A DNA stretch of 37,023 nucleotides from Rubrivivax sp. (GTDB taxonomy: Bacteria; Pseudomonadota; Gammaproteobacteria; Burkholderiales; Burkholderiaceae_C), in assembly GCA_016789955.1 (NCBI GenBank), contig JAEUPB010000055.1:1-37023 (forward strand), given 5' to 3'. A program made the position numbers and the translations under genes. Below are positions 6,497 through 19,443 of this stretch, one piece after another. The notes below the pieces were generated by a model. The model ran no database searches and was not told the DNA's origin. It saw only the letters and a list, made by a program, of their open reading frames with translations. Positions within the stretch are counted from its first letter, which is position 1. Every line of letters starts with the position of its first letter.

Positions 6497-6525
6497 GCGC
6501 GGCGGGCTGAACGCGGCCGCTCAGC
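6492..6525. terminator. Inverted repeat spanning two convergent stop codons
   Basis: The 8-bp perfect arms GCTGAGCG (6492-6499) and CGCTCAGC (6518-6525) include the stop codons of the convergent Nudix and lpdA genes. The loop is 18 nt and there is no T-tract on either side, so termination would be weak or bidirectional at best. The position is suggestive but the call is tentative. Confidence 0.35.
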
Positions 6526-8269
6526 GCCGCTGCGGCGGCAGGTCGGTGCACGAGCCGTGCGCCACCTCGGCGGCCATGCCGATGCTCTCGCCCAGCGTCG
6601 GGTGCGGGTGGATGGTCTTGCCGATGTCGACCTCGTCGGCCCCCATCTCGATGGCCAACGCCACCTCGCCGATCATGTCGCCGGCATGCGTGCCGACGAT
6701 GCCGCCACCGAGGATGCGATGCGTCTCGGCATCGAACAGCAGCTTGGTCTGGCCCTCGTCACGGCCGTTGGCGATGGCGCGGCCGGACGCCGTCCACGGG
6801 AACAGGCCCTTCTTGACCTTCACGCCCTTGGCCTTGGCCTCGTCTTCGGTGAGGCCGACCCAGGCCACCTCGGGGTCCGTGTAGGCCACGCTCGGGATCA
6901 CGCGGGCGTCGAACTGCGCCTTCGTGTCGCCGCTGGCCACCTCGGCGGCCACGTGCGCCTCGTGCACCGCCTTGTGCGCGAGCATCGGCTGGCCGACGAT
7001 GTCGCCGATGGCGTAGATGTGCGGCACGTTGGTGCGCATCTGCACGTCGACCTTGATGAAGCCACGATCGCCGACGACCACGCCGGCCTTCTCGGCGCCG
7101 ATCTTCTTGCCGTTCGGGGTGCGGCCCACGGCCTGCAGCACCAGGTCGTAGAGGCCCTCGCTCTTCGTGCCGTCGAGCCCCTCGAACTGCACGCGGATGC
7201 CGTCCGCCGTGGCCTCGGCGCCCACCGTCTTGGTCTTCAGCATCACGCGCTCGAAGCGGTGGGCGTTCATCTTCTGCCAGACCTTCACGAGGTCGCGGTC
7301 GGCACCCTGCATCAGGCCGTCGAGCATCTCGACGACATCGAGCTTCGCACCCAGCGTGGAATAGACCGTGCCCATCTCGAGGCCGATGATGCCGCCGCCG
7401 ACCACCAGCATCCTTTCAGGACGCTGTCGGAGCTGCAACGCGCCGGTGGAGGTGACGATGCGCGGGTCGTCGGGGAGGAACGGCAGCTTCACCGCCTCCG
7501 AACCTGCGGCGATGATGGCCTGCTTGAAACGCACGACGACCCGCCTGCCATCGGCTCCCGTCACCGCGAGGTGGTGCGGGTCGGTGAACTCGCCGGTGCC
7601 TTGCACCACGGTGACCTTGCGCATCTTGGCCATCGCCGCCAGGCCGCCGGTGAGCTTGCCCACCACCTTGTTCTTGTGGGCCAGCAGCTTGCCGAGATCG
7701 ACCTCGGGCTTGGCGAAGGTCACGCCGAGGTCGGCGAAGTGGGTCACCTCGTCCATCACCGCGGCCACGTGCAGCAAGGCCTTGCTCGGGATGCAGCCGA
7801 CGTTCAGGCACACGCCGCCGAGCGTCGGATAGCGCTCGACGAGCAGCGTCTTCATGCCGAGGTCGGCGGCACGGAACGCAGCGGAATAGCCGCCGGGACC
7901 GGCGCCGAGCACGAGCATGTCGCACTCGTGGTCGACGGTGCCGGCATGGGCCGGCGCGGCGGCGGGCGCTGGAGCAGGCGCTGCTGCCGCCGGTGCGGGT
8001 GCCGGTGCGGCAGCCGCCGGCGCAGCCGCGCCGGCCGCCTCGACGATCGCCAGGACCACGCCTTCGTTGATCTTGTCGCCGAGCTTCACCTTCAGCTCGC
8101 GGATCACGCCGGCGGCCGACGACGGGATCTCCATCGAGGCCTTGTCGCTCTCCACCGTGATCAGGCTCTGCTCGACCTTCACGGTGTCGCCGGGCTTGAC
8201 CAGCACCTCGATCACCGCGACGTCCTTGAAATCGCCGATGTCCGGCACCTTCACTTCGATCAGCGCCAT
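6521..8269 (-). CDS. lpdA: Dihydrolipoyl dehydrogenase (E3) with N-terminal lipoyl domain
   Basis: The flavoprotein that reoxidises dihydrolipoyl groups of the pyruvate dehydrogenase complex with NAD+. It has 582 residues: a lipoyl domain (1-78, lipoyl-lysine Lys43 in ESDKAS), an Ala/Pro linker (79-110), the FAD motif GAGPGGYSA from residue 122, the redox disulfide Cys154/Cys159 in CLNVGC, an NAD motif [10 protein letters not shown], and the C-terminal [11 protein letters not shown] His/Glu pair. An in-frame ATG at 8278 overlaps the upstream stop as ATGA, but the only ribosome binding site (GAGGGG) touches that ATG. It lies 9 nt before the ATG at 8269, which also gives the family N-terminus [12 protein letters not shown]. 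It is the last gene of aceE-aceF-BPH-lpdA. Confidence 0.95.
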
Positions 8270-8274
8270 CGCCG

Positions 8275-8847
8275 TCATCCCCTCAGCTTGAATGTGTGGC
8301 TGCGCACCGGCGCAGCAGAACTGGTGTCGAACTCGCAGCCGGCGCGCACGCCGGTCTCGGCAATCTCGGCCGCGGTGCGGGCGCGGTCGTAGACCGCGTG
8401 CATCGCGCCCAGCGCGAAGCGGCGTCCCGAGCCGATCGCCCAGAAACGCTCGAACTCGAACACCTCGCGGTACGACTCGACACCGAAGATGCCGCTCCCA
8501 TTGGCGATCAGCAACGAGTACTGGCTGCTCTCGTACGGGTCCGTGTCATGCTCCTTGGTGTTGAGGAAGTAGGTCTCCTTCAACTTCGGATGCAGCCGCC
8601 GGAACGTCTCGAACAGGCCGTCCCGATCCTCGAGCCGCAGCTCCTCGGGCGGCAGCGCGTTCAGCGCCTGCCGCAGCACCGGCACGTGCGCGGTCGAGCC
8701 GACCATGCCGACGATCGAGCTGCCCACCTCGAACATCTTGGTGTTCAGCTCGTAGCCGTGCGGCAGCCGCGTCTCGCCGAAGGTCACCAGCGAGTCCGAC
8801 GCGATCGCCAGCGTGCGGCCCTTGCGGGCCACCACGACGGTGCTCAT
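8275..8847 (-). CDS. Betaproteobacterial proteasome homologue (BPH), HslV-like Ntn hydrolase
   Basis: A 190-residue self-compartmentalising peptidase subunit of the proteasome fold. The start [19 protein letters not shown] aligns with the HslV opening MTTIVSVRR...GDG. After Met removal the N-terminal residue, the expected nucleophile, is Ser rather than Thr. An Asp follows in ASDS (residue 18), a conserved Lys in NTKMFEV, and the late GSGRR motif in [14 protein letters not shown] corresponds to the family's active-site Ser-Gly loop. BPH proteins are known to form tetradecameric double rings with no identified unfoldase, and Ser-type members exist. The gene starts 2 nt after the aceF stop and its TGA precedes lpdA, so it is co-expressed with pyruvate dehydrogenase. 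No ATPase gene is nearby. HslV and Anbu are less likely: there is no hslU and the N-terminus is not Anbu-like. Confidence 0.85.
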
Positions 8848-8849
8848 GT

Positions 8850-10508
8850 CTACAGCAACACGCGGCGGAAGTCGGCGAGCAGGCTCGCGAAATACGCGTT
8901 GAAGCGCGCCGCCGCGGCACCGTCGATGACGCGGTGGTCCCACGACAGCGACAGCGGCAGGATCAGCCGCGGCTGGAAGGCCTTGCCGTCCCACACCGGG
9001 CGCGTCGAGCTGCGGCACACGCCGAGGATGGAGACCTCGGGCGCGTTGATGATCGGCGTGAAGTACGTGCCGCCGATGCCGCCCAGCGAGCTGATCGAGA
9101 AGCAGCCGCCGCTCATGTCCGCCGGGCCGAGCTTGCCGTCGCGCGCCTTCTTGGCGAGTTCGCCCATCTCCTGGCTGATCGCCAGCACGCCCTTCTTGTC
9201 GGCGTCCTTGATGACCGGCACCACGAGGCCGTTGGGCGTGTCGGCCGCGAAGCCGATGTGGAAGTAGTTCTTCAGCACCAGCTGCTCGCCGTCGAGCGAG
9301 GCGTTGAACTCGGGGAACTTCTTCAGCGCGTAGACCGCCGCCTTGATCAGGAACGCGAGCATCGTCACCTTGACGCCGCTCTTCTCGTTCTCCTTGTTCA
9401 GCAGCAGCCGGAACTCCTCCAGCTCGGTGATGTCGGCATCGTCGTGGTTGGTGACGTGCGGGATCATCACCCAGTTGCGGTGCAGGTTGGCGCCGCTGAT
9501 CTTCTTGATGCGCGACAGGTCGCGCCGCTCGACCGGGCCGAACTTCGAGAAGTCGACCTGCGGCCACGGCAGCAACCCGGGCAGCGAGCCACCCGTGGCG
9601 GCCGGCGCGGCGGGGGCCTTGGCCTTCTGCGCCGCGGTCTGCGTGCTGCCGGCCATCACGGCCTTCACGAAGCCCTGCAGGTCGTCCTGCGTGATGCGGC
9701 CCTTGGGCCCGGTGCCCTGCACCTCGGCCAGCGGCACGCCGAGTTCGCGCGCCAGACGTCGGATCGACGGGCTGGCGTGCGGCAGCGTCGCGGTGGGGGC
9801 GGCGCCGGGCTGGTGAGTGGCCGCGGGGGCCGACGGGGAAGACGCCGATGCCGCGGCGGGAACGGCTGCGGGCGCGGCAGCCGTTGCGGGCGCCGGCGCA
9901 GGCACCGCCGCGGCCGGGGCGGCAGCACCCGCCGCGCCCTTCAGCGTGGCGATCGGCGTGCCCTTGTTGATCTTGTCGCCCACCTTCACGAGCAGGGTCT
10001 CGACGACCCCGGCGTGCGACGACGGGATCTCCATCGACGCCTTGTCGCTCTCCACGGTGATCAGGCTCTGCTCGAGCTTCACGGCGTCGCCGGCCTTGAC
10101 GAAGATCTCGATCACCGCGACGTCGGCGAAATCACCGATGTCGGGCACCACCACGGTGACCGGGCCGGACGCAGCCACCGGTGCATCCGCAGCGGCGGCC
10201 GCAGGCGCCGGAGCCGGAGCTGCGGCCGACGGCGCAGGTGCGGGCGCCACGGCGGATGCCGATGCCGCGCCTTCCGCCTCGACCAGCGCCACCAGCGTGC
10301 CTTGGCTGACCTTGTCGCCGAGCGAGACCTTCAGTTCCTTCACCACGCCCGCCACCGACGACGGGATCTCCATCGAGGCCTTGTCGCTCTCCACGGTGAG
10401 CAGCGACTGCTCGAGCTTGATCGTGTCGCCGGGCTTCACCAGCAGCTCGATCACGGCCACGCTCTCGAAGTCCCCGATGTCGGGGACCTTCACTTCGACC
10501 AACGCCAT
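8850..10508 (-). CDS. aceF: Pyruvate dehydrogenase E2, dihydrolipoamide acetyltransferase
   Basis: The core of the pyruvate dehydrogenase complex, which moves acetyl groups from lipoamide to CoA. Domains over 552 residues: lipoyl 1 (1-78, Lys43), an Ala/Pro linker, lipoyl 2 (about 115-190, Lys156), a long Ala/Pro linker, the peripheral subunit-binding domain (about 243-280, SPSIRRLARELGV), and the catalytic acyltransferase domain ending in the DHRVIDG motif with His525 and Asp529. The start [14 protein letters not shown] is typical. It follows aceE by 27 nt and is followed 2 nt later by the BPH gene. The two lipoyl segments are close copies of each other and of the one in lpdA. Confidence 0.96.
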   Translation of the reverse strand: MALVEVKVPDIGDFESVAVIELLVKPGDTIKLEQSLLTVESDKASMEIPSSVAGVVKELKVSLGDKVSQGTLVALVEAEGAASASAVAPAPAPSAAAPAPAPAAAAADAPVAASGPVTVVVPDIGDFADVAVIEIFVKAGDAVKLEQSLITVESDKASMEIPSSHAGVVETLLVKVGDKINKGTPIATLKGAAGAAAPAAAVPAPAPATAAAPAAVPAAASASSPSAPAATHQPGAAPTATLPHASPSIRRLARELGVPLAEVQGTGPKGRITQDDLQGFVKAVMAGSTQTAAQKAKAPAAPAATGGSLPGLLPWPQVDFSKFGPVERRDLSRIKKISGANLHRNWVMIPHVTNHDDADITELEEFRLLLNKENEKSGVKVTMLAFLIKAAVYALKKFPEFNASLDGEQLVLKNYFHIGFAADTPNGLVVPVIKDADKKGVLAISQEMGELAKKARDGKLGPADMSGGCFSISSLGGIGGTYFTPIINAPEVSILGVCRSSTRPVWDGKAFQPRLILPLSLSWDHRVIDGAAAARFNAYFASLLADFRRVLL

Positions 10509-10535: not shown

Positions 10536-13247
<2,712 letters not shown>

Positions 13248-13287
13248 CGTTTGTCTCCTGATGGGTGGTTGGTTCGGATCGGCGCGC

Positions 13288-13315
13288 AGTGTATCGACTT
13301 CTGCGCGATTTTCAA
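13288..13315 (-). promoter_or_regulatory. Sigma70-type promoter of the aceE operon
   Basis: On the minus strand, -35 TTGAAA (13315-13310), a 16-bp spacer, and -10 TACACT (13293-13288). Each hexamer matches the consensus at 4-5 of 6 positions. The expected start near 13282 gives a leader of about 35 nt that contains the AGGAG of aceE. The region is noticeably AT-richer than its surroundings and also lies upstream of the divergent kinase gene. Confidence 0.7.
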
Positions 13316-13372
13316 ATAGTGCTTTGTGATTTCATAATGCGAATTCAAAGAGCGCCCGCGATAATCCGGCCC

Positions 13373-15949
13373 ATGAGTCCCCCCGGACCCAATATCAGCC
13401 ACGCCCGCCGCCTCTTCGGATCCTGGTGGCGCAGGCAATCGCCCGCGCGCCAGGATCGCTTCGCCACGCTCGCGCCGCTGATGTCGGTGCTGCTGTTCCT
13501 CGCGGCGATCATTTCGGCGTTCTGGTACTTGCGCAACGAGGAAATCGAGCGGGAGACCGAGTCGGTCAAGCGCGACACCGAGATCGCCCAGCAGCAGCTC
13601 GGGCTGCGGCTGCTCGAGAACCAGGAAGCCTCGATCCGCCTGGCGCGCGAACTGGTGGCGCGCGACGTCTCGCGCACCGACTTCCTGTCGCTGTCGACCG
13701 CCTTCACGCGGGAGCGGCCCGAAGTCACGCAGCTCACGTGGGTCAACCTCAAGCGCAATGGCCGCCAGGGCCTCGCCTGGAACCACTCGGAGTTCACCAA
13801 CGGGGCGACGCTTCCCCTGCTGCCCGGCGACGACAAGCGAGCCGACCCGGCGACGGCCGCCGCCGAGGAAGCCTGGCGCTCTCTGCGGGACGGACGCACG
13901 CCGGTGTACTCGCGCGCTTTCCGTGACGCCAACCACGTGCCGGTGTTCCAGATGCAGGTGCCGCTGCAGGACCGCAGTGGCTTCAGCGGCGCGCTGATCG
14001 TCGAGTACGCGATCGATGCGCTGGTGCGCTACTACGTGCCCGCCGACGTGTCGCGCCGGCACATGGTCGCCCTGCTCGACGGCCAGGGCAAGGTGCTGTC
14101 GAGCACCGTCACACCGCTGCCCGGGCAGGCGACGCGGCGCGCGCCGATCACCAGCGACGCGCCGCTCACCCCCACGGCCAACGGCCTGCTGATCCGTGCG
14201 CAGGGCTACCGCACCTCGATCGGCCTGATCAGCAACACGCTGTTCTGGATGGTGGTGGCACTGTCCGTGCTCACGGTGTGGATGCTGCTGGGCACGTGGC
14301 GCCACATGCGGCGGCGCTCGCAGATCCAGGCGGCGCTCGTGCAGGAGACCAACTTCCGCCGGGCGATGGAGAACTCCATGCCCACCGGCATGCGCGCGAT
14401 GGACCTCGAAGGCCGCATCACCTACGTGAATGCGGCGTTCTCGCAGATGACGGGGTTCGCCGACACCGAACTGGTCGGCCGCCTGCCGCCCTTCCCCTAC
14501 TGGCCGCCCGACCGCATCGAGGAGAACAGCCGGCTGCTGCAGCAGGAGCTGCTCGGCCGCAGCCCATCCGGCGGCATCGAGGTCAAGGTGATGCGCAAGG
14601 ACGGTTCGCTGTTCGATGCGCGCATGTACGTCAGCCCGCTGATCGACCCCAAGGGTCAGCAGACCGGCTGGATGACGAGCATGACCAACATCACCGAGGC
14701 CAAGCGCGTGCGCGACCAGCTCTCGGCGTCGCACGAGCGCTTCACCACGGTGCTGGAGGGTCTGGACGCCGCGGTGTCGGTGCTCTCGGTGCACCAGGGC
14801 GAGCTGCTGTTCGCCAACCGCTCGTACCGCCTGTGGTTCGGCGGCGATGCCAAGGGTCACACGCTGATGGCCGAAGGCACCGCGCCGGGCCCGTTCATCC
14901 CCGACACCGGCGACGACTCCGACCCGCTGGGCGGCCTGCCGACGCGCGAGCTCACCGAGGGCGGCACCGCGCCGCGCGAGGTGTTCGTGGGCTCGCTGCA
15001 GAAGTGGTTCGACGTGCGCTCGCGCTACCTGCAGTGGACCGACGGGCGACTCGCGCAGATGCTGATCGCCACCGACATCACGGCCCGCCTGCGCGCCGAG
15101 GAGCAGGCCGCCGCGCAGGCCGAGAAGGCGCAGGTGGCGAGCCGGCTCGTGACGATGGGCGAGATGGCCTCGTCGGTGGCGCACGAGCTGAACCAGCCGC
15201 TGACGGCGATCAACAACTACTGCAACGGCATGGTCTCGCGCGTGAAGGCCGAGTCCATCGACAAGGACGACCTCATCGCCGCGCTGCAGAAGACCGCGCG
15301 CCAAGCCGAGCGGGCCGGCCAGATCATCCACCGCATCCGCGCCTTCGTGAAGCGCAGCGAGCCGCAGCGGCAGCCGGCGCAGGCCCGGCAGATCGTCGAG
15401 GACGCGGTCGAGCTGGCCGGCATCGAGCTGCGGCGGCGCAACGTCTCGCTGCACAGCTACGTTGCGCAGCGGCTGCCCACGCTGCACGTGGACCCGATCC
15501 TCATCGAGCAGGTGGTGCTGAACCTCGTGAAGAACGCTGCCGAGGCGATCGACAGCGCGCGGCTGCCGGCCTCGCGCCGCCACATCGAGCTGCGCGTGGT
15601 ACCGCGGCACACCGCCGAGGAAGGCGGCGTCATCGAGTTCAGCGTCACCGACATGGGCCCGGGCCTGAAGGAAGAGGTGATCGCACGCCTGTACGAGGCG
15701 TTCTTCTCCACCAAGGCCGAAGGCCTGGGCATCGGGCTGTCGCTGTGCCGCTCGATCGTCGAGTCGCACCGCGGCCGGATGCGGGGACAGAACATCTACA
15801 ATGGGACGCAGGTCGTCGGCTGCCGATTCGCCTTCACGCTGCCGGTGGATCTGCCTCCGCGAAGCGAGGCAGGCACCCCGAAGGACGACGCCTCCGAACC
15901 GACTCCCGCCGCCGGCGCGGCATCCCTCCCGAGCGTGGTTTCCGAATGA
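13373..15949 (+). CDS. PAS-domain membrane sensor histidine kinase (FixL/DctB-like)
   Basis: An 858-residue inner-membrane kinase. Helix 1 is near residues 34-54 (LAPLMSVLLFLAAIISAFWY) and helix 2 near 285-308 (FWMVVALSVLTVWMLLG). Between them is a periplasmic sensor of about 230 residues with no recognisable ligand motif. Two PAS-like regions follow (about 325-450 and 455-570). The kinase core has the phospho-accepting His604 in SSVAHELNQPLT, the N box NLVKNAAEAID, and G boxes DMGPGL and GLGIGLSL. It overlaps the response regulator gene by ATGA, so the pair is translationally coupled. The start at 13373 follows a GATAAT box by 7 nt with no ribosome binding site; an in-frame ATG at 13337 is the alternative. 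The signal and target genes are unknown. Confidence 0.9.
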   Translation: MSPPGPNISHARRLFGSWWRRQSPARQDRFATLAPLMSVLLFLAAIISAFWYLRNEEIERETESVKRDTEIAQQQLGLRLLENQEASIRLARELVARDVSRTDFLSLSTAFTRERPEVTQLTWVNLKRNGRQGLAWNHSEFTNGATLPLLPGDDKRADPATAAAEEAWRSLRDGRTPVYSRAFRDANHVPVFQMQVPLQDRSGFSGALIVEYAIDALVRYYVPADVSRRHMVALLDGQGKVLSSTVTPLPGQATRRAPITSDAPLTPTANGLLIRAQGYRTSIGLISNTLFWMVVALSVLTVWMLLGTWRHMRRRSQIQAALVQETNFRRAMENSMPTGMRAMDLEGRITYVNAAFSQMTGFADTELVGRLPPFPYWPPDRIEENSRLLQQELLGRSPSGGIEVKVMRKDGSLFDARMYVSPLIDPKGQQTGWMTSMTNITEAKRVRDQLSASHERFTTVLEGLDAAVSVLSVHQGELLFANRSYRLWFGGDAKGHTLMAEGTAPGPFIPDTGDDSDPLGGLPTRELTEGGTAPREVFVGSLQKWFDVRSRYLQWTDGRLAQMLIATDITARLRAEEQAAAQAEKAQVASRLVTMGEMASSVAHELNQPLTAINNYCNGMVSRVKAESIDKDDLIAALQKTARQAERAGQIIHRIRAFVKRSEPQRQPAQARQIVEDAVELAGIELRRRNVSLHSYVAQRLPTLHVDPILIEQVVLNLVKNAAEAIDSARLPASRRHIELRVVPRHTAEEGGVIEFSVTDMGPGLKEEVIARLYEAFFSTKAEGLGIGLSLCRSIVESHRGRMRGQNIYNGTQVVGCRFAFTLPVDLPPRSEAGTPKDDASEPTPAAGAASLPSVVSE

Positions 15950-16569
15950 GCCTGATTCCCAAGAAGGGCACCGTCTACGTGGTCGACGACGACGAGGCGG
16001 TGCGCGATTCGCTGCAGTGGCTGCTCGAAGGCAAGGACTACCGCGTCAAGTGCTTCGACTCGTCGGAGTCGTTCCTCTCGCGCTTCGACCCGCGCGAAGT
16101 GGCCTGCCTGATCGCCGACATCCGCATGGACGGCATGAGCGGCCTCGAACTGCAGGACCGGCTGCTCGAACGCAAGAGCCCGCTGCCGATCGTCTTCATC
16201 ACCGGCCACGGCGATGTGCCGATGGCGGTGACGACGATGAAGAAGGGCGCGATGGACTTCATCGAGAAGCCGTTCAAGGAAGAGGAACTGCTGGGCCTCG
16301 TCGAGCGCATGCTCGAGCAGGCGCGCAGCGCCTTCAGCCAGCACCAGGAGCAGGCCAGCCGCGACGCGCTGCTGAGCCGCCTCACCACGCGCGAGGCGCA
16401 GGTGCTCGAGCGCATCGTTGCCGGCCGGCTGAACAAGCAGATCGCCGACGACCTGGGCATCAGCATCAAGACGGTCGAGGCGCACCGCGCCAACATCATG
16501 GAGAAGCTCAACGCGAACACCGTGGCCGATCTGCTGAAGATCGCCCTGGGCGCGCAGAGCAAGAGCTGA
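15946..16569 (+). CDS. FixJ/NarL-type response regulator
   Basis: A 207-residue two-domain regulator. The receiver domain has the acidic pair Asp14/Asp15 in VVDDDE, phospho-acceptor Asp58 in IADIRMDG, the switch Thr in FITGHGD, and the Lys in EKPFKEEEL. The C-terminal LuxR/FixJ helix-turn-helix (about 140-200) reads [12 protein letters not shown] and [16 protein letters not shown]. It is the partner of the kinase encoded just upstream, with which it shares an ATGA overlap. FixJ-type proteins activate transcription when phosphorylated. Its targets are not evident. The divergent aceE operon is the obvious neighbour to test, but that is inference only. Confidence 0.92.
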
Positions 16570-16576
16570 CCGCGCG

Positions 16577-17431
16577 ATGACGGCCCAGCTGATCGACGGC
16601 GTCGCGCTGTCGCGCCAGTTGCGCGCGCGCATCGGCGAGCAGACGCAGGCGCTGCTGCAGCGCATCGGGCGGCGGCCGGGGCTGGCGGTGATCCTCGTCG
16701 GCGACGACCCGGCCAGCGCGGTCTACGTGCGGCACAAGGTCGCCGCGTGCGAGGAGTTCGGCCTGCACTCGGTGTTCGAAAAGTACGAGGCCGCGACGGC
16801 CGAAGCCCTCGTGCTCGACCGCGTGGCCGCGCTGAACGCCGACCCCACGATCCACGGCATCCTCGTGCAGATGCCGCTGCCGAAGCACATCGATCCGCAG
16901 AAGGTCATCGCCGCGATCGACCCGCGCAAGGACGTCGACGGCTACTCGGTGCTCGCCGCGGGCCAGCTCACCACCGGGCTGCCGGGCCTGCGCCCTTGCA
17001 CACCGCTGGGCTGCATGAAGCTGATCGAGAGCACCGGCCAGTCGCTGCGCGGCAAGCACGCGGTGGTGATCGGTCGCAGCAACACCGTGGGCAAGCCGAT
17101 GGCGCTGCTGCTGCTGCAGGCCAATGCCACGGTGACCGTGTGCCACAGCGCAACGCCCGACCTCGGCGTGCACACGCGGCAGGCCGACGTGATCGTGGCC
17201 GCCGTCGGCCGCCGCAGCACGGTGACGGCCGACATGGTGAAGCCCGGCGCGATCGTCATCGACGTCGGCATGAACCGCAACGAGCAGGGCAAGCTGTGTG
17301 GCGACGTCGACTACGCCGGCGTGCGCGATGTGGCGGGCTGGATCACGCGGGTGCCGGGTGGCGTCGGCCCGATGACGATCACGATGCTGCTGGCCAACAC
17401 GCTGCAGGCCGCCGAGGCGCTGCTCGGATGA
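16577..17431 (+). CDS. folD: Bifunctional methylenetetrahydrofolate dehydrogenase/cyclohydrolase FolD
   Basis: Interconverts methylene-, methenyl- and 10-formyl-tetrahydrofolate for purine, formyl-methionine and one-carbon supply. The 284-residue length is standard. Signatures are the catalytic Lys in [13 protein letters not shown] (near residue 56), the VQMPLP substrate loop, [10 protein letters not shown], the NADP site [16 protein letters not shown], and the terminal [16 protein letters not shown]. It begins 7 nt after the response regulator and ends in an ATGA overlap with the oligopeptidase gene, so the four genes from the kinase onward are probably one transcript. Confidence 0.96.
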
Positions 17432-19443
17432 ACCCGCTGTTGGCGGCGGACGCCAAGCCCGACTTCCCGTCGATCCGGCCCGAGCACGTCACGCCGGCGC
17501 TGGACGTGCTGCTGGCCGATGCCGAGGCGGCGCTGGCCGCCGTCACCGGCGGTTCGGTGCCCGCCGACTACCATGCCGTCTCCAAGGCGCTGGACGTGCC
17601 GCTCGAACGGCTGCGGCGCGCCTGGACGCTGGTGTCGCACCTGCAGGCCGTGGCCGACACGCTGGAGCAGCGCGCGGCCTACACCGGGAACCAACCGCGC
17701 GTCACCGCCTTCTACACACGGCTGGGCGCTGATGAGCGGCTGTACACGATCTACAAGGCCATTGCGGCGAACGACAGGGCGCTCAACGACGAGCAGCGCC
17801 AGGCGCTGCGCCACGCACTGCGAGACTTCGTCCTCGGCGGCGCCGAGCTGAAGGGTGCCGCGCGGCAGCGCCATGCCGAGATCCAGGAGCGCGCCGCGAC
17901 GCTGTCGCGAGAATTCGGCGAACACGTGCTCGATGCCACCGACGCCTACGCCTGGTATGCCACCGAGGCCGAGATGGCCGGCGTGCCCGACGACGTTCGG
18001 GCCGTCGCGCGCGAGGCCGCTGCGGCGGACGGCCGCAACGACTTGTACAAGCTGACGCTGCAGGAAGCCTGCCTGCGCCCGCTGCTGCGCTACGCCGAAG
18101 ACCGCTCGGTGCGCGAGCGGCTGTACCGCGCCTATGCCACCCGCGCCAGCGAGGCCGGCCCGCCGGAGCTGGACAACGGGCCGCTGATGCGCGAGCTGGT
18201 CGCACTGCGCAACGAAGAGGCGCGGCTGCTCGGCTACCGCGACTACGCTGCACTGGCCCTGGTGCCGAAGATGGCGCGCACGCCCGATCGCGTGCTCGAC
18301 TTCGTGCGCGATGCCGCGCGGCGTTCGCGCCCGCATGCCGAACGCGACCTCGCAGCGCTGCGCGAGTTCGCCACCCGCGAGCTCGGGCTGCAGTCACTCG
18401 AAGCCTGGGACCTGCCCTACGCCAGCGAGAAGCTGAGCCAGTCGCTCTACGCCTTCAGCAGCGACGAGGTCAAGCGCTACTTCCGCACGCCCGAGGTGCT
18501 GACAGGCCTCTTCGGGTTGATCGAGTCGCTGTTCGGCGTGACCTTCCGCCCGGATACGGCCCCGGTGTGGCACGGCGACGTGCGCTTCCTCGAACTGTTC
18601 CGCGGCGAGCGGTATCTCGGAGCGCTGTATCTCGACCTCTACGCCCGCCCCGGCAAGCAGTCCGGCGCCTGGCTCGACGACGGCATCCGGCGCTGGCTGC
18701 GCCCCGACACCGGGCAGCTGCAGGCGCCAGTGGGCTTCCTCGTCTGCAACTTCGTGCCGCCGGCTGATGGCCGCCCGTCGCTGTTGTCGCACGACGACCT
18801 GATCACGCTGTTCCACGAGTTCGGGCACGCGCTGCACCACCTGCTGACGCGGGTCGACGACCTCGCGGTGTCGGGCATCGCGGGCGTCGAGTGGGATGCC
18901 GTCGAACTGCCCAGCCAGTTCATGGAGAACTACTGCTGGGAGTACGACGTGCTGCAGCGCCTGTCGTCGCACGTCGACACCGGCCAGCGGCTGCCGCGCG
19001 ACCTGTACGAGCGCATGCGCGCCGCGCGCAACTTCCAGAGCGGCTGGACGATGCTGCGCTCGTGCGAGCACGGCCTGTTCGACCTGCGACTGCACCACGA
19101 GCCCGGCGCCGGCGACGACATCGAGCGCCTGATGGCCTCGGTGCGCGACGAGGCGTCGGTGCTGCCGCCACCTCCGTGGCAGCGCTTCGCCAACACGTTC
19201 ACACACATCTTCGACGGCGGTTACGCGGCCGGCTACTACGGCTACGCCTGGGCCGAGGTGCTCTCGGCCGACGCCTATGAGGCCTTCGAGGAAGCCGGCA
19301 TCCTCGACCCCGAAACCGGCCGGCGCTTCCGCGAGCAGGTGCTCGAGGTAGGCGGCAGCCGCGACGCGATGGCCAGCTTCGTGGCCTTCCGCGGGCGCGA
19401 GCCGCGGCTGGATGCATGGCTGCGTCACCAGGGTCTGAACTGA
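17428..19443 (+). CDS. prlC: M3-family metallo-oligopeptidase (oligopeptidase A, PrlC-like)
   Basis: A cytoplasmic zinc oligopeptidase that degrades short peptides, including signal-peptide fragments. At 671 residues it matches oligopeptidase A (about 680). The zinc motif HEFGH spans residues 463-467 in [11 protein letters not shown], and the third ligand Glu is in the following [16 protein letters not shown] segment. The C-terminal [15 protein letters not shown] motif, typical of M3 enzymes, is present. The N-terminus ([15 protein letters not shown]) also fits the family. The ATG overlaps the folD stop. Dipeptidyl carboxypeptidase Dcp is the nearest alternative, but the start and length favour PrlC. 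Confidence 0.92.

Follow-up and report, generated by a model that had tools for sequence, protein, structure and literature searches.

The window, i.e. the whole stretch of 37,023 nucleotides of Rubrivivax sp. DNA that was analysed, carries on its minus strand a pyruvate dehydrogenase (PDH) operon, in which equivalogs of aceE, aceF and lpdA follow each other in this order, all above the NCBIfam cut-offs (Table 1). Between aceF and lpdA lies a gene for a proteasome homologue of the BPH family, read from 8847 to 8275 and ending with a TGA stop codon at 8277-8275. The TAG stop codon of aceF (8852-8850) is followed by 2 nt and then by the ATG of the BPH gene, and the start codon of lpdA (MALIEV...) is found 5 nt past the BPH stop, at 8269; an alternative in-frame ATG at 8278 overlaps the BPH stop codon. 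A consensus scan of the minus strand between 6300 and 13700 found no terminator-like site, and one minus-strand sigma-70-like site was detected, upstream of aceE. As far as consensus matches can tell, this suits a single transcript. Divergently from aceE, the plus strand (13265-19443) encodes a PAS histidine kinase (13265-15949), folD (16577-17431) and, within 16747-19443, an M3-family oligopeptidase (PF01432, 1.7e-134); the location of a peptide degrader near BPH may be due to chance.

Table 1. Features of the BPH gene and of the surrounding PDH operon
Feature	Position	Strand	Basis
aceE, PDH E1	10536..13247	-	TIGR00759, 1432 bits (cut-off 859.9)
aceF, PDH E2, two lipoyl domains	8850..10508	-	TIGR01348, 729 bits (cut-off 552); two Biotin_lipoyl stretches
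BPH gene, Ser-1 type	8275..8847	-	190 aa, MSTVVVARK...; matches to solved BPHs, AlphaFold/Foldseek
AGC codon of the predicted nucleophile Ser-1	8842..8844	-	alignment to solved BPHs
GTC codon of Val48, preceding oxyanion Gly49, equivalent to the proteasome Ala46 position	8701..8703	-	sequence
Section of the pore loop (residues 94-103, Met=0) with lower acidity than in Thr-1 BPHs	8536..8565	-	low model confidence
lpdA, E3, N-terminal lipoyl domain	6521..8269 (alternative start 8278)	-	TIGR01350, 484.5 bits (cut-off 408.8)
Sigma-70-like promoter match upstream of aceE	13288..13315	-	consensus match only
GAGGGG, possible ribosome site for lpdA, within the 3' end of the BPH gene	8279..8284	-	read from sequence

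In a phmmer search of solved chains the best match of the protein was the BPH of Cupriavidus metallidurans (5ovu, Rmet_1198; E 6.9e-68), followed by the BPH of Thiobacillus denitrificans (5ovs; E 6.7e-30). Relatives were found in named genomes, the best 80 of 88 being 49-81% identical. The AlphaFold model of the monomer (65 sequences) had a mean pLDDT of 88, with values below 50 at residues 99-107 (Met=1) in the pore loop, and Foldseek ranks 1-6 for this model were BPH chains. The matches to solved BPHs, the 80 relatives and the Foldseek result together show that the ORF is not due to chance, and by its sequence and modelled fold, which are those of the solved subunits, the window gene is a BPH. 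No Pfam match was obtained at E 0.001. According to the study describing the family, BPH descended from HslV, as judged by cluster analysis, and forms a double ring of seven-membered rings (PMC5777263). The window protein did match HslV profiles weakly, but remained far under the curated cut-offs (28.9 vs. 157.75 bits for TIGR03692, 29.3 vs. 137 bits for NF003964), and whereas HslV pairs with HslU, the neighbours of the window BPH are aceF and lpdA.

A previous sequence-only reading had proposed a 190-residue BPH in this junction, starting 2 nt after aceF and ending 5 nt before lpdA, with Ser rather than Thr as the expected nucleophile. These claims were borne out, the gene being on the minus strand. 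Thr-2 of the query pairs with residue 2 of both solved chains (5ovu and 5ovs), which places the predicted nucleophile Ser at residue 1 after removal of Met. There is no propeptide, the nucleophile directly follows Met, and the catalytic network (S1, D17, K36, G49, S139 and D173) as well as the long pore loop of the family are present. The C. metallidurans BPH is similar in sequence and fold, in its location in the operon of the pyruvate dehydrogenase complex (PDC) and in lacking a propeptide, but it has Thr-1 and five consecutive acidic residues in the pore loop, and the Thr-1 proteins related to it have an Ala48-type active site, unlike the Val48 of the window protein. The T. denitrificans BPH (5ovs, 5ovt), whose own N-terminal residue is epoxomicin-reactive, shares the fold and the catalytic network; it differs by its Thr-1, its location in an arginine-synthesis operon and its lower similarity (38% identity in the Foldseek alignment).

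The published study states that BPHs have Thr-1 in Betaproteobacteria and Ser-1 only outside this group (PMC5777263). Our sequences do not follow this rule. The locus sets overlapped, and 202 loci yielded 162 distinct proteins; in the BPH tree (161 rows, residues 0 and 1 omitted, the truncated L232 dropped beforehand) 25 distinct betaproteobacterial proteins with Ser-1 formed a clade nested among the Thr-1 BPHs of PDH operons (SH-aLRT 100). Among the best 80 of 88 named relatives, those falling inside the clade were mostly labelled Rubrivivax. Conversely, and again at odds with the rule, Thr-1 was found beyond the order of the window in three BPH-like genes, L313 and, in the phylum of L056, L338 and L339; all three may represent contamination or a different subfamily, and the match in L338 contains one TAG. 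We treat the mismatch as a fault of the published rule and not as an argument against BPH membership.

In the clade, Ser-1 is encoded by AGC in 41 and by AGT in 2 of the 43 loci, i.e. by AGY throughout, in contrast to the other Ser-1 BPHs found (L056, L312, L334-L337, L363 and L364), all eight of which use TCN codons. The non-betaproteobacterial proteins, whose Ser-1 type is also on record in PMC5777263, share with the clade Ser-1 and, in five of eight cases, Val48, but occupy a separate place in the tree, and neither aceF nor lpdA was found beside those whose neighbourhood was checked (L056, L312, L334-L337). Uniting all Ser-1 rows in a single clade cost 88.3 log-likelihood units and was rejected (p-AU 3.9e-58; 41 rows, residues 0, 1 and 48 removed); because of the long branches among the non-betaproteobacterial rows the exact p-AU value is not to be leaned on, the codon split, however, agrees with the rejection. 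Judged from these sequences, Thr-1 changed to Ser once in the clade of this genus.

The search was extended to two further genome sets, in which only matches with E <1e-40 were called BPH: 12 in the first set (261 of 398 genomes with matches) and 7 in the second (232 of 396). The next best values, 1.6e-9 and 2.7e-8, were taken to represent HslV or other kin. A search of plasmids gave no BPH match, and IMG/VR yielded four weak BPH-like matches on viral contigs (L365-L368, 27-44% identity), which are possibly members of another proteasome-like family. In the part of the open-licence PMC literature covered by our search we found no description of a betaproteobacterial Ser-1 BPH clade. This nucleophile clade is what is new here; the location of BPH in the PDH operon is already in print, having been published in 2017 for C. 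metallidurans (PMC5777263).

The change of the nucleophile is not isolated. When the 25 Ser-1 proteins were compared with 110 Thr-1 proteins from PDH operons, six columns (1, 48, 99, 123, 142 and 174) had no residue in common between the two groups, whereas, of 26 clades of 8-40 rows tested, those outside the Ser group had at most one such column each. D17, K36, G49, S139, D173 and S176 are conserved in all 25 proteins of the clade. Among Thr-1 BPHs, position 139 is Thr throughout the clade of L018, L020 and L025 (13 rows), and the relay Ser elsewhere. Residue 48 precedes the oxyanion Gly49 as Ala46 precedes Gly47 in the proteasome; the counterpart of this glycine in the T. denitrificans enzyme is Gly-50 (PMC5777263). 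In a total of 176 BPHs Val48 was present in 28 of 31 Ser-1 and in none of 145 Thr-1 proteins; with L363 and L364 added the former number becomes 30 of 33. The exceptions are three of the eight non-betaproteobacterial proteins, L335 (Ala) and L336 and L337 (Thr). It must be noted that Val48 changed three times on the tree, and with so few pairs a paired sign test (p at least 0.5) could not have reached significance. At position 47, which we take by homology to be the S1-floor position, 18 of the 25 clade proteins carry Ala, 5 carry Thr, and Met and Cys are found once each; the window BPH itself retains Met47. The pore loop is less acidic, the mean net negative charge of residues 88-112 being 2.2 in the Ser clade vs. 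4.0 in Thr-1 proteins, and a crude NG86 estimate of dN/dS was 0.38 in the Ser clade vs. 0.25 in near Thr-1 proteins, an indication that constraint is weaker or has changed.

The survey of gene order confirmed that the aceF-BPH-lpdA arrangement extends beyond the window genome. A BPH match was obtained in 100 of 399 genomes of the window's family; in five of the 100 (G045, G101, G237, G250 and G334) the match was partial or weak and the locus was left unread. Of the 93 family loci with readable flanks, 92 have BPH placed between aceF and lpdA and the remaining one (L088) shows aceF only; in the genus, all 26 loci with readable flanks have the same order. All 94 family loci read besides the window have Thr-1, and the 27 loci of the genus divide into 23 with Ser-1 and 4 with Thr-1. 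Among the best 80 of 88 named relatives, 79 had both flanks readable, and BPH was between aceF and lpdA in 53 of these and outside the PDH operon in 26.

The sequence-only reading had gone further and suggested a link of BPH to PDH, through turnover or quality control of the subunits or the lipoyl machinery or through a peptide-clearing role tied to carbon flux. Its identification of the protein, the Ser nucleophile, the packing and the conserved order stood; a physical or quality-control link was not supported. The constancy of the position in the family and in the genus would be expected of a protease dedicated to the PDH complex or its lipoyl components, for quality control or processing, but we consider such a role very improbable. 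According to PMC5777263, pull-downs with the C. metallidurans BPH found no PDC subunits, and in other lineages BPH is located in arginine or hsp33 operons, to which the 26 named loci outside the PDH operon can be added. Moreover, a BPH match was missing from 54 of the 81 genus genomes, some of which are incomplete, and 26 of the 45 aceF-lpdA junctions that could be read are free of BPH. With so many PDH operons of the genus lacking BPH, co-location is a poor ground for assigning a quality-control role. Probably the PDH operon supplies BPH with steady expression rather than with a substrate.

Of the 81 genus genomes, 27 thus had a BPH match, or 17 of 53 when only the good ones are counted; in a control genus (that of G096) BPH was matched in five of five genomes, in one of them over 45 residues only. 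The junctions were read from lpdA, which was matched in 59 of 60 genus genomes searched; 50 loci were taken, five junctions were unreadable, and BPH was present in 19 of the remaining 45. The gap between aceF and lpdA is 10-16 nt in 20 of the 26 junctions without BPH and 36-110 nt in the other six, and in 15 of the 20 short ones TAA is directly followed by GGAG or GGGG. Nearly identical junctions of this kind (TAA, GGAG, 10 nt, ATG) occur on separate branches (e.g. L142, L144, L167 and L275); either a ribosome site may have evolved there convergently, or a single allele may have spread. The LpdA tree implies at least seven changes of BPH presence on its starred branches and nine on the best tree. 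A codon tree of rpoB from 40 genomes, for which 10 of the 50 loci were left out and absence was based on genomes at least 90% complete and not always on the junction, implies at least six, and eight on the best tree. On both trees Ser and Thr switch only once.

Given the presence of BPH in a third of the genus and the closure of 20 of 26 readable BPH-less operons to 10-16 nt, the gene appears to be inherited vertically, to have been lost repeatedly and not to be required for PDH. It is less likely that operon alleles with and without BPH were exchanged by recombination in place of repeated deletion, and we regard this as an unlikely source of the patchy pattern. The similarity of the short BPH-less junctions would fit exchange, and so would the decrease to 7 presence changes when the final 150 nt of aceF are used, but 11-13 changes were counted on other segments of aceF and lpdA, Ser and Thr switch only once on each tree, and well-supported BPH groups recur. 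The group G411/G412/G413/G436/G443 has high support on the BPH and LpdA trees and, without G443, on the rpoB tree, and the pair G435/G448 on the BPH and LpdA trees. G447 and G462 form a pair in the BPH tree (support 85), and in the LpdA tree they fall into one clade (100/99) with two BPH-less genomes. Apart from the 7 changes on the end of aceF, there was no clear signal that recombination of short tracts had caused the absence of BPH. The patchy presence is most simply explained by vertical inheritance and repeated losses.

We also considered BPH as a substitute for HslV. This was not supported: HslV scored above the cut-off in 72 of 81 genus genomes, and most genomes of the genus have it alongside BPH. 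In the window genome (79.59% complete, with no rpoB match either) BPH is the sole, weak HslV match, and no HslV match was obtained in G469 (L115), which is 99% complete and has a Ser-1 BPH. G414 (75% complete, 5% contamination) has two Ser-1 BPH genes, L116 and L137, each in a PDH context, from duplication or a mixed assembly.

What the Ser-1 clade does with its altered active site can be approached through the yeast proteasome. In PMC4792962 the methyl group of Thr-1 is described as held by Ala46 and Thr3, together with the side chain of Lys33. When Thr-1 of beta5 is mutated to Ser (beta5-T1S), the hydroxyl of Ser is found where the methyl group was, rotated by 60 degrees, and the strain does not grow at 37 C. 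The published explanation is that Ser-1 turns away because there is no methyl group for residues 46 and 3 to hold. The natural clade resembles this mutant in having Ser in place of Thr-1 in the same active-site frame; the mutant, however, is engineered, less active and retains Ala46, whereas the clade pairs Ser-1 with Val.

We propose that removal of Met exposes Ser-1 and that the subunits most likely assemble into a closed double ring that encloses the active sites, made along with the PDH operon without serving PDH. Thr-1 changed to Ser once in the genus, and on the same stem Ala/Ser48 became Val, the acidic residue at 99 in the pore loop was lost and residues 123, 142 and 174 were replaced. 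Since Ala46 holds the Thr-1 methyl in the proteasome, Val48 may take up the room that the missing methyl group leaves and keep the hydroxyl of Ser-1 facing the substrate. About three independent gains of Val48 lie behind this proposed compensation. The result would be an active Ser-type BPH whose pore loop is less acidic and whose substrate range may have changed, most likely an unfoldase-independent peptidase acting on unstructured or damaged polypeptides (no unfoldase is known to interact with BPH according to PMC8665760). Being useful but dispensable, it would be repeatedly lost. We put the probability of this account as a whole at roughly one half. More tentatively, and as something possible rather than probable, we suggest that Ser-type enzymes of the proteasome family arose more than once, that Val at the Ala46 position fills the methyl pocket and holds the productive rotamer, and that the betaproteobacterial clade is one independent solution, remodelled also at 99, 123, 142 and 174. 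In the part of the open-licence PMC literature covered, no residue-46 compensation for Ser-1 was found described.

Several observations count against this explanation. Three of eight non-betaproteobacterial Ser-1 BPHs have Ala or Thr at position 48, the activity loss published for beta5-T1S is moderate (40-45%) on one substrate and undetectable on another (PMC4792962), and the C. metallidurans and T. denitrificans BPHs showed no activity in vitro (PMC5777263). Two rival explanations stand out, a relaxation of constraint that preceded loss and a change of specificity without repair. It is conceivable, but rather unlikely, that BPH is on its way out in the genus, Ser-1 and the other changes being drift in a gene that is hardly required, followed by deletion in most lineages: the patchy presence and the number of forced presence changes on both trees agree with this, and the higher dN/dS of the Ser clade fits it as well. 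Drift alone, however, would not be expected to keep six columns fixed apart, the catalytic-network residues are conserved in all 25 proteins, and the reading frames are open in all 43 clade loci as read. The other possibility is that Ser-1, Val48 and the replacement of Met by Ala or Thr at position 47 reshape the S1 pocket, with no repairing role for Val48. The residues found at position 47, if this position does form the S1 floor, and the reduced charge of the pore loop point in this direction. We consider it rather unlikely as well, because the window protein retains Met47 and because Val48 is also seen where residue 47 is Val or Ile, in non-betaproteobacterial Ser-1 proteins, but in no Thr-1 protein.

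With the Ser-1 clade, the published restriction of Ser-1 BPHs to lineages other than Betaproteobacteria has to be corrected, and the many PDH operons lacking the gene advise caution against inferring a role in PDH quality control from co-location. It is a long-standing question why proteasomes retain threonine. A natural clade, in which Ser and a change at the residue-46 position fall on one branch, makes the printed explanation testable by single-residue swaps.
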